DNA from: Bradyrhizobium acaciae
GTDB lineage: Bacteria > Pseudomonadota > Alphaproteobacteria > Rhizobiales > Xanthobacteraceae
Assembly: GCF_020889785.1 (NCBI RefSeq)
Contig: NZ_JACMYK010000027.1
Coordinates: 1-64,000, forward strand
DNA length: 64,000 bases
Direction: 5' to 3'
Shown piece by piece: positions 855 to 3,143 of this stretch. Under the pieces are notes generated by a model. That model saw nothing but the letters and a program-made list of their open reading frames with translations, was not told the origin of the DNA and did not search any database. The stretch's first letter is position 1. Every line of letters starts with the position of its first letter. The translations under genes and the position numbers were made by a program.

Positions 855-958
855 GGGGTATTCGATTGTGAATTAACGGGATATTTACAGTGTTCATGTT
901 TTGTTCTAAATTCACGAATCGCGCTGAGGCGGATAGTTAGCTTTCGCGAGGAGACGCC

Positions 959-1477
959 ATGGACGCCGAGACTCTAATTCTTGCTGTGCTGGATGCCGTT
1001 CCGGGCAAAAAAATCCAAGGGAGAAAGCGGCTCCAAAAGATGTCCTATTTTGCGTTGCAAAAAGGAGCTGATGCAAATGTAAGATTTTTTTTGCATGACT
1101 TTGGGCCGTTCAGCGCGGACATTGCTAGCGCAACGGATTTGCTTGCCTTCCTCGGAGACATCGAAGAAGAGGAGATTCAGCTTGGGCGGAGCCGGATATA
1201 TTCCAAGCTCTATCGTTTGAATGATCCGAGCAATGTCCCTGAGCATCTTCCAAGTGAGGTTGCTTCTGCGATCAAGCTGCTCGACGAATTTACGACGATT
1301 GAGCTCGAGATTGCCTCGACAATTTTCTACTTCATGTCTGCCGAAAGCCTAGATTCCGCCAGAGCAATCGAGGCTACGAAGAAGCTCAAGCCCAGTAAGG
1401 CGCAGCCGGGCATAGTCAAGCGCGCGCAAGACGCGCTTTCCAAGGTAGGGTTGGATGAAGGCGGAAGAGCGAATTAG
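959..1477 (+). CDS. YwgA/Panacea-like protein paired with an HD phosphohydrolase
   Basis: A 172-residue protein of unproven function. Residues 21-30 (GRKRLQKMSY) and 44-52 (FLHDFGPFS) resemble the LQKLxY...GP signature of the Bacillus YwgA family and of the Panacea (DUF4065, SocA-like antitoxin) domain; this is recognised by eye only. The ATG follows GAGGAGACGCC. A possible weak promoter (TTTACA at 884, TCTAAA at 905) lies upstream. It overlaps the next gene by 23 bases, implying translational coupling. Many codons end in A or T, unlike the neighbouring genes, suggesting recent transfer. In Bacillus subtilis ywgA is, to my knowledge, adjacent to the HD-domain gene ywfO, which matches this arrangement. 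A regulatory or antitoxin-like partner role is inference. Confidence 0.72.
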   Translation: MDAETLILAVLDAVPGKKIQGRKRLQKMSYFALQKGADANVRFFLHDFGPFSADIASATDLLAFLGDIEEEEIQLGRSRIYSKLYRLNDPSNVPEHLPSEVASAIKLLDEFTTIELEIASTIFYFMSAESLDSARAIEATKKLKPSKAQPGIVKRAQDALSKVGLDEGGRAN

Positions 1478-2753
1478 ATGCCCCGTTCATGATCTAATCA
1501 GCTTTAAGAGACAGCGCTCCGAGGACGTTGTCTTGTGGGGTCTTTTGCAGACCCCCGCTATTCAGCGGCTGAGACGCGTGAAGCAGCTCGGATTCTCCGA
1601 GTTCGTCTATCCTGGAGCAACTCACACTCGTTTGTCTCACGTCCTCGGCGCCATGCAAATGGCTCGGCGAATGTTGGATGTTCTTCAAAAGAACAATGCG
1701 TTTGGCGAGGTGCCAGACTTTGAAATTCAGCGATCCGCTACTTTGGCGGCAGCGCTGCTCCACGATGTCGGGCACGGTCCATATTCGCACGTATTCGAAG
1801 AAGTGTGCGAGACACTTGGCATTGAGAAGAAGCACGAAGCCTATACTCTAGAATTCATCGACTCTGAACAAATTCGGCCCTTGCTCGAGAGGGGAGGCAT
1901 CTTCGCTGAAACTCGTCGCTTTTTCACCGAGGAGCCAGGGCAAGCCGTTTTTAACTCGATTATTTCAAGCCAGCTTGATTGCGATCGCCTAGATTTTTTG
2001 GTCCGTGACCGTCACCACACAGGAATCCGAGCGGCAAACATCGATCTAGCCTGGTTGTTTGATAGTCTTAACATTGAGAAGGTGGCTATCGATGACGATG
2101 GGGCTTTTGAATATTCATTTGTTTTTTCGGCAAAGGGGCAGGCTGTCGCTGAAGAGTTCGTTCTTGCCTATATCAAGATGTATAACTCAGTTTACTTTCA
2201 CAAGACCACTCGAGGCGTTCAGCACCTCGTTCGCGACATGCTCGTCGAAGTGATTAATCAGCACTCGGAACGGGCCGAGTTGCGGTCGCTACCATTGGTC
2301 AAATTTTTCAAAGAGGACCAAAGTTTAGATCGTTATGCCCGGCTTGACGATGGCTCGGTTCTCGCGATTGCTCACGTAGTAGCTGAGGTCGATTTGGGGT
2401 TAGCGTCGGAGCTTGCTCGAAGATTCCTGAATCGTGACACCTATAAGTGCTTCGAATTGCCCGGTACCGCGACTGGAAACATCGGGCGGAACAAGTTATT
2501 GCGATTTCGCGATGCGCTGCATAACGACAGTATCTATTTTGTGGAGGATAAGCTCGCTCATCGCAACTACAAACAACACGCGGTTACAGATGAGAGTTTC
2601 CTCAAGAACATTCTCATCAAGATAAACGGTGAGCACGAGTCTTTAGGGAGCGTCAGTTCGCTTCTCAAAACGCCGGTCACGAGAGTTGCGCGATTTTACT
2701 TCCGGACACGTGAAGATTGCGAACGGGCTCAGAGAATATTCCATGAGCTTTAG
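1455..2753 (+). CDS. HD-domain phosphohydrolase, SAMHD1/YwfO (EF1143) type
   Basis: A 432-residue protein with the full metal-binding set of the HD superfamily: H62 (TRLSH), H103-D104 (LLHDVGHGPYSH) and D175 (QLDCDRLDF). The N-terminal PVHDLI and the segment IQRLRRVKQLG are typical of the YwfO/EF1143/SAMHD1 group, whose characterised members hydrolyse dNTPs to nucleoside and triphosphate. No regulatory nucleotide site can be judged by eye. The start lies inside the preceding YwgA-like gene, so the two are probably co-translated. Base composition is markedly more AT-rich than the flanking genes. A dNTP-depleting defence or nucleotide-pool role is plausible; a different phosphohydrolase substrate cannot be excluded. 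Confidence 0.85.
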   Translation: MKAEERIRCPVHDLISFKRQRSEDVVLWGLLQTPAIQRLRRVKQLGFSEFVYPGATHTRLSHVLGAMQMARRMLDVLQKNNAFGEVPDFEIQRSATLAAALLHDVGHGPYSHVFEEVCETLGIEKKHEAYTLEFIDSEQIRPLLERGGIFAETRRFFTEEPGQAVFNSIISSQLDCDRLDFLVRDRHHTGIRAANIDLAWLFDSLNIEKVAIDDDGAFEYSFVFSAKGQAVAEEFVLAYIKMYNSVYFHKTTRGVQHLVRDMLVEVINQHSERAELRSLPLVKFFKEDQSLDRYARLDDGSVLAIAHVVAEVDLGLASELARRFLNRDTYKCFELPGTATGNIGRNKLLRFRDALHNDSIYFVEDKLAHRNYKQHAVTDESFLKNILIKINGEHESLGSVSSLLKTPVTRVARFYFRTREDCERAQRIFHEL

Positions 2754-2795
2754 GCCTCAGCGCGGTTTTGGGACGGCTACCTAAGCAGTGATCCG

Positions 2796-3143
2796 ATGAC
2801 CAAAGACGAGCCGATCGACGAGATTTCCGAGATCGAGGCGCAGATCGAGGAGCTTGCCGAGAGCGCCGAACGATCGCGCAGGATCATTCTCGGCTCGAAG
2901 GTGGCGATTGCCGGCGGGTTCGGGCTGCTGCTCGTCACGCTGCTTGGCCTGCTGGGCTCCGGAGAGACCGCGGCGCTCGGATCGATCGCTCTGGTGCTCG
3001 GCGGCATCGTGTCGCTCGGATCGAATGTCAGCACCTTGCGGCAGACCGAGGCCGCCATCAGCACCGCCGAGGCACGCCGCGCGCGGCTGATCGGCAATAT
3101 CGACTTGCGGCTCGTTCACGAGGCGCCGCTGAAGCTGATGTGA
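2796..3143 (+). CDS. Small membrane protein, two predicted helices
   Basis: A 115-residue protein, not recognised. Residues about 5-30 are acidic and helical with heptad-like spacing (EIEAQIEELAE), followed by two hydrophobic stretches (roughly 33-55 and 60-78) and a charged C-terminus. Composition returns to the high-GC style of the chromosome, so it appears to belong to the native background rather than to the AT-rich pair just upstream. No convincing ribosome binding site precedes the ATG. Function unknown. Confidence 0.6.
   Translation: MTKDEPIDEISEIEAQIEELAESAERSRRIILGSKVAIAGGFGLLLVTLLGLLGSGETAALGSIALVLGGIVSLGSNVSTLRQTEAAISTAEARRARLIGNIDLRLVHEAPLKLM

Follow-up and report, generated by a model that had tools for sequence, protein, structure and literature searches.

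In the 64-kb window analyzed here (the whole stretch of 64,000 nt), two overlapping AT-rich genes, A and B, lie in a stretch that is absent or replaced in relatives and carry a LexA-type operator sequence in their promoter. With a probability of roughly 55%, we read the pair as a horizontally acquired, LexA-controlled nucleotide-depletion module, in which the dNTPase encoded by gene B would be held in check by the DarG-type product of gene A. The features are as follows.

858..2793 (ends approximate), no strand assigned: insert lying between pccB and the gene at 2796-3143; lowest GC of the window; in relatives, missing or exchanged for other sequence
884..912, + strand: sigma-70-like promoter, TTTACA-17-TAAATT, from a consensus scan
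892..906, + strand: exact LexA (SOS) box GTTCATGTTTTGTTC, GTTC-N7-GTTC, within the spacer that separates the −35 and −10-like hexamers
959-1477, + strand: gene A, 172 aa, DarG-C-terminal-domain/YwgA-like partner
1455-2753, + strand: gene B, 432 aa, predicted SAMHD1/EF1143-type HD dNTPase
1455..1477, + strand: overlap of A and B, 23 bases

Both genes were found where the initial annotation had placed them, overlapping by 23 bases directly downstream of the pccB-like gene, which ends at 854. The overlap likely reflects translational coupling, and the start of B at 1455 is supported by a relative (L001) that starts at the same residue. The pair had also been described as richer in AT than its neighbors, which holds true: GC content was 0.51 in A and 0.50 in B compared with 0.642 in the whole window, and GC3 was 0.57 and 0.55, respectively, vs. 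0.85–0.90 in four other window genes. A scan in 50-base steps showed A and B to be the lowest-GC 1.8 kb of the window.

In related genomes, pccB was often followed by the counterpart of the window's 2796-3143 gene. The survey comprised 44 pccB loci, which gave 39 relative places after subtraction of two window copies and three repeats; some genomes contribute a second pccB copy to this set. The site was near-empty at 19 of the 39 places (gap of 43–141 bases after pccB), the gap was longer (406–1375 bases) at 13, and the 2796-type gene was missing within approximately 1.5 kb at seven. The longer gaps hold other genes and, therefore, the site exchanges small cassettes: the gap of G401 contains a 70-aa ORF and a Fic-domain protein, that of L135 an ORF very similar by eye to the G401 cassette ORF, and that of L134 a 260-aa AT-rich ORF. 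A 468-aa AT-rich ORF follows pccB in G404, with no 2796-type gene within 1.5 kb. Differing small AT-rich cassettes, including the Fic protein, were also noted at the pccB-downstream site across related genomes (e.g., L111, L116, L134, and L158).

Judged by its sequence and predicted structure, B is a SAMHD1/EF1143-type HD phosphohydrolase, and dNTP hydrolysis is predicted for it. It contains the Pfam domains HD and HD_assoc_2, and the best phmmer match was EF1143 (2o6i, E = 3.1e-47), followed by a Bacteroides phosphohydrolase and SAMHD1. The AlphaFold2 model of B (pLDDT 90.4) matched 2o6i over its full length (Foldseek E = 2.3e-22, TM 0.78, 454 columns), the next matches being fungal and then human SAMHD1; the modeled fold includes the C-terminal region of EF1143/SAMHD1. 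According to excerpts of PMC8177086, EF1143 is a proven dNTPase with the metal ligands H66, H110, D111, and D183; it depletes dNTPs, and dGTP is an activator of the Mg form. These ligands map to H62, H103, D104, and D177 of B, all of which were invariant in 31 aligned sequences (window included); the first three were also invariant in a separate alignment of 20 sequences (window included). Thus, the assignment to SAMHD1-type dNTPases made earlier is upheld by sequence, full-length fold, and four metal ligands. Three of the ligands then proposed (H62, H103, and D104) stand, but the fourth does not: D175 is invariant, and the residue that aligns with D183 of EF1143 is D177. As a candidate Dgt/CloA-type dGTPase, B was rejected (28.9 bits against TIGR01353, cut-off 152.35). 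Structure 9mr6, considered as CloA, proved to be a fungal SAMHD1.

No Pfam domain was matched in A. When a profile of 24 A members was compared with the PDB, 7yk3_B (DarG in the DarT-DarG complex of Mycobacterium tuberculosis) was matched with E = 1.1e-5, the next match having E = 0.12. The PADLOC DarG model was also hit by all 24 members with E values of 0.1 or lower, the lowest being 8.6e-15. For the AlphaFold2 model of A (pLDDT 97.1), 7yk3 was the sole Foldseek match below 0.001 (7yk3_B, E = 2.5e-4, TM 0.64). VIA-align placed 157 of 172 residues on 7yk3_D (Z 14.1, rmsd 4.3), and the next entry reached Z 7.2 over 85 residues; in the same comparison, the N-terminal half of A resembled PadR/MarR-type DNA-binding domains. 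A and the DarG C-terminal domain have the motifs LQK, YGPYS, and ELxAxT in common. The LQKMSY...FGPFS pattern noted at the outset is present in A, and Q26, K27, G49, and P50 were invariant among the 24 aligned sequences (window included). By homology and modeling, A would be a winged-helix protein with the DarG C-terminal-domain fold, inhibitor-like in character, which agrees with the restraining role that had been suggested for the small partner. Deep et al. reportedly found in 2023 that the DarG C-terminal domain keeps DarT inhibited through ssDNA mimicry. The median pI of A was 6.1, with no overall acidic bias, and so gross DNA mimicry is not supported by its composition.

A stands alone, without the N-terminal macrodomain, and it did not qualify as a whole DarG antitoxin, matching only positions 188–324 of the 338-position profile with 21.7 bits vs. 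the NCBIfam cut-off of 250. The relation to Panacea (SocA-like) proteins that had been proposed for A was not supported by Pfam: none of the 24 members matched Pfam Panacea at E 0.1, the match being to the DarG C-terminal domain instead; judged by entry names, no structure named Panacea was among the fold matches listed for the A model. A BFVD fold search returned one match under 1e-3, a Sulfolobus virus protein (TM 0.43), and the closest named A homologue was found in a Methylobacteriaceae MAG. PDC-M19A, a candidate defense family of PADLOC, was also matched by 19 of the 24 A members at E 0.1 or better, with window A matching the N-terminal part of the 294-position profile.

A homologue of A was found directly after the HD gene in Priestia (73 bits, E = 1.3e-23; 11-sequence test set, 23-member profile built without the Priestia sequence). 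Its record is labeled "hypothetical protein"; by position we take it to be YwgA and, with it, the two genes to be the ywfO-ywgA locus. On this identification, the suggested relation of A to YwgA is borne out.

In the order, 20 of 397 genomes (that of the window among them) had a match to window A, and B adjoined A in those loci wherever the contig reached. The exception (L013, in G006) is cut by the contig end, and the B of G006 lies at the end of another contig. A B profile, made up of the Priestia B and 19 B genes from loci with an adjacent A, gave 23 places below 1e-100 in the same 397 genomes (window included); A was adjacent to B at 22 of them, and the 23rd (G006) meets a contig end. Being built from paired B genes, this profile favors paired B, and most of the 23 places depend on that choice of members. 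The pair of G310 was found by the B profile and missed by the single-sequence A search. The weaker B places (n = 9) include the second half of a split B and a B with a divergent A (G228); seven of the nine were examined, these two among them, and five had no A in the locus. The split B is that of L072 (G074:C13), where the gene is broken into two neighboring ORFs and the A next to it looks intact. The near-empty sites behind pccB, the presence in 20 of 397 genomes, and the pairing at 22 of 23 strong B places mark an inserted, patchily distributed pair kept as a unit, in support of the initial view of a mobile insert.

Of 398 genomes sampled across the phylum, 16 gave a match to A. Five of the matches (that of the window, three strong A proteins, and a divergent one in G663) lie next to a B, and the other 11 lay in frames of 243–392 aa, a length that would fit DarG proteins. 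Pairs were found in both gene orders (n = 34 in the tree set): A-B in the window, L001, L003, and L004, and B-A in the other 31 pairs listed. A and B are adjacent, mostly overlapping, and conserved as a unit, which is the gene arrangement of type II toxin-antitoxin systems. The overlap was 1–20 bases in 23 of 34 pairs, with some larger figures reflecting uncertain starts. Distances in the A and B trees were correlated (34 pairs, r = 0.905, best of 2000 shuffles 0.43; 27 closer pairs, r = 0.935, best shuffle 0.45). Because linked genes are inherited together, this agreement shows co-transfer, not contact.

In the B tree (single FastTree run, midpoint rooted, branch supports disregarded), the clade of window B was paired throughout, barring L085 and four plasmid HD genes. 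L085 lies at a contig end, with the beginning of A still present on its contig, and in the nested group of four plasmid HD genes, A is replaced by a radical SAM protein, an exonuclease, and an AAA protein. On Rhizobiales plasmids (L026–L029), a radical SAM protein, an RNase T-type 3′-5′ exonuclease, an AAA protein, and a SAMHD1-type HD protein are encoded in one conserved four-gene operon without A, which is possibly an undescribed defense cassette; Shedu-like, TcmP, or ABC-three-component genes occur near some copies. In L089, L092, L093, L107, L040, and L074, a divergent HD gene is immediately followed by one for a divergent A-like protein; these loci are remoter versions of the pair. L091 holds a B relative (1.4e-102) with no A in its 16-kb contig.

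As a single query against plasmid and phage records, window A found no A at the limits set. Among 21 fetched plasmid- or phage-labeled records with an HD relative, A was present, within the stretch taken, in that of Priestia only; no A was found within the stretch fetched in the Listeria, Staphylococcus, Aerococcus, and Enterococcus records with B relatives. With A in 1 of 21 such records, enzymes of this kind do not always need A.

The earlier sequence-only reading had missed the promoter's LexA box. On its own, the promoter prediction is weak, as the scan found one where 1.4 were expected by chance. The pattern GTTC-N7-GTTC is given as the LexA box of Caulobacter crescentus in parts of PMC9578287 and PMC4211646. 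In the genome of the window, exact boxes precede the lexA ORF by approximately 166 bases and the longest recA ORF by approximately 132 bases. At 26 pair loci, namely the 23 places of the order, two loci of the class, and L001, we searched the 155 bases surrounding the start of the first gene as inferred by profile. The exact box, in either orientation, was present upstream of 15 of these loci, in both gene orders, and no exact box was present upstream of the other 11. For comparison, the box occurred in 5 of 2057 control tiles (20 control loci) and in 32 of 5200 shuffles of the pair upstreams. The motif had first been noticed in four of the 26 upstreams, which therefore provide no independent test of the hypothesis; with them excluded, 11 of the remaining 22 loci had the exact box. 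One-mismatch boxes were uninformative, being found in 16 of 26 pair upstreams but also in 184 of 2057 control tiles.

Nine scanned relatives with a short pccB gap had no box in that gap; thus, the box belongs to the insert. No box was found upstream of L179 (other class of the phylum) or of four radical-SAM cassettes, and the upstream sequence of the Priestia pair contained neither of the two box patterns tried. The pair loci from IMG/VR comprised L088, with an exact box upstream, and L082, L083, and L085, with none. The operator-like sequence in the promoter of the pair suggests that LexA would bind there and that DNA damage would induce the genes.

The genomic surroundings were compared using 158 ORFs around 18 pair loci and 160 control ORFs picked. 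After ORFs of at least 900 aa were left out (five neighbor and two control ORFs), 138 of the remaining 153 neighbor ORFs and 138 of the remaining 158 control ORFs were scanned with PADLOC. Defense enrichment around the pair was not visible (51 families matched vs. 50 in controls); among the matches listed (best 25 of 51 and best 25 of 50), reverse transcriptase dominates one side and restriction-modification genes the other. A viral origin of the pair was considered but not adopted. Three IMG/VR contigs, viral by database origin and putatively phage, carry complete pairs, and one more pair is cut by the contig end; one of the pair-bearing contigs begins with a RecD-like helicase. On one pair-bearing IMG/VR contig, TIR-domain and HicB-like genes follow the pair. 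In a genome of the window's genus (G376, L161:4963-7526), there is an AT-rich gene pair in which a divergent HD phosphohydrolase gene overlaps that of a protein-kinase-domain protein, which matches the mad6 and PD-T4-6 defense kinases.

In the proposed mechanism, LexA on the promoter spacer would keep the expression of A and B low, and its inactivation by DNA damage or by the ssDNA of a phage attack would lift the repression. A and B would then be made together, coupled through the gene overlap, and A would bind B directly and keep it inactive, as the DarG C-terminal domain plugs DarT. If A were lost or saturated, B would be freed to hydrolyze dNTPs. Active B would lower dNTP pools and stop the replication of damaged or infecting DNA, and A would limit self-harm. 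The linkage, homologies, predicted folds, ligands, and LexA-type box are results of the analysis described above; the binding and inhibition of B by A, the binding of LexA and induction, toxicity, phage defense, and this outcome are inferred.

Part of this evidence would also suit a host DNA-damage checkpoint, in which a LexA-controlled dNTPase trims dNTP pools during repair and A acts as an allosteric tuner. LexA boxes at 15 of 26 pair loci and surroundings with no visible defense enrichment are consistent with such a role, and FssC of Caulobacter offers a precedent as a dNTPase that sets dNTP levels and cell-cycle timing (passages of PMC12186491). However, a core function would not be expected to show the patchy presence (20 of 397 order genomes) and variable insertion site that we observed, and we regard the checkpoint as unlikely. 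We give even less weight to the idea, which the Bacillus-type locus might prompt, that B is a house-cleaning dNTPase in need of A as its subunit or activator. The Priestia pair, in a plasmid-labeled record, does lie among housekeeping-type genes (e.g., pta and YwhD), and YwfO has been proposed to be a promiscuous pyrophosphohydrolase acting on modified nucleotides (part of PMC4993169); a required A, however, is hard to reconcile with the Listeria, Staphylococcus, Aerococcus, and Enterococcus relatives of B that lack it in the stretch fetched, and the best structural relative of A is an inhibitor domain.

It is very improbable that A represses its own operon by binding DNA and makes no contact with B. 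The N-terminal winged helix is like those of VanR and PadR (Z up to 7.2), and upstream of the window pair there is an inverted repeat that only 1 of 200 shuffles equaled. Three close A-B relatives, however, had no inverted repeat better than many shuffles, the match between A and DarG spans 157 residues at Z 14.1, and the linkage of A and B is kept in both gene orders.

A nucleotide-depletion module restrained by a DarG-type partner has partial counterparts among known systems. DarTG (7yk3) is similar in the fold of A over 157 residues and in the LQK, YGPYS, and ELxAxT motifs, but A has no macrodomain and its partner is a predicted HD dNTPase instead of DarT. EF1143 of Enterococcus faecalis and SAMHD1 share the full-length fold and metal ligands with B, whereas no A gene was present in the 6-kb Enterococcus stretch examined. 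In what we presume to be the ywfO-ywgA locus of Priestia, the HD gene is likewise followed by an A homologue, but the pair lies among housekeeping-type genes with neither box pattern upstream. Caulobacter HigBA is a LexA-controlled two-gene toxin-antitoxin pair (excerpts of PMC9578287) and thus resembles the arrangement proposed for A and B, but HigB is an RNase and B a predicted dNTPase. In the portion of a Staphylococcus aureus toxin-antitoxin survey consulted (PMC10244574), the HD phosphohydrolase group "1H" is listed as a putative toxin of unknown function in 619 of 621 genomes; it has the HD domain in common with B and may belong to another subfamily. The HD relative in our S. aureus record (n = 1) has no A, unlike the paired B.

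The closest described logic, by analogy, is that of Clover, a two-gene module in which the dGTPase CloA is restrained by p3diT made by the nucleotidyltransferase CloB (parts of PMC12265719). Both are two-gene modules with a dNTPase and a partner that restrains it or, in our case, would do so; however, A is of the DarG type and CloB makes a nucleotide, and B is of the EF1143/SAMHD1 branch. Membership in Clover was rejected, because A has the DarG fold and no Pfam match where Clover has a nucleotidyltransferase, and B scored 28.9 bits vs. 152.35. The available portions of the open-licence literature on YwgA, YwfO, and dNTPases with antitoxins contained no description of the A/B pair and no HD dNTPase with a DarG-like partner. 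Restrained dNTPases are already known from Clover, and the combination of a DarG-type partner with an enzyme of the EF1143/SAMHD1 branch appears, from sequences and models, to be new.

An orphan A homologue (L084:4959-5471) lies on a phage contig of 39 kb (IMG/VR 3300033150_001288) that also encodes a primase, an HNH protein, and an exonuclease and has no B match anywhere; it is the one phage contig of this kind encountered, and its A is a candidate decoy antitoxin. Tentatively, and with considerable doubt, the pair could be seen as an SOS-triggered bacterial counterpart of SAMHD1, that is, a mobile dNTPase held off by a portable DarG-type inhibitor, with some phages carrying A alone as a decoy. 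On this view, damage or phage attack would switch the module on and collapse dNTP pools, and one inhibitor domain would serve against several DNA-acting enzymes (DarT and dNTPases).

If the module reading is true, antiviral dNTP depletion, a DarG-type inhibitor, and SOS control would be joined in one mobile unit. The little-studied YwgA family would gain a function, and the DarG C-terminal domain might then be a general plug for enzymes handling DNA or deoxynucleotides. The module would also tie DNA damage to a programmed depletion of dNTPs in bacteria in a way that can be tested directly.
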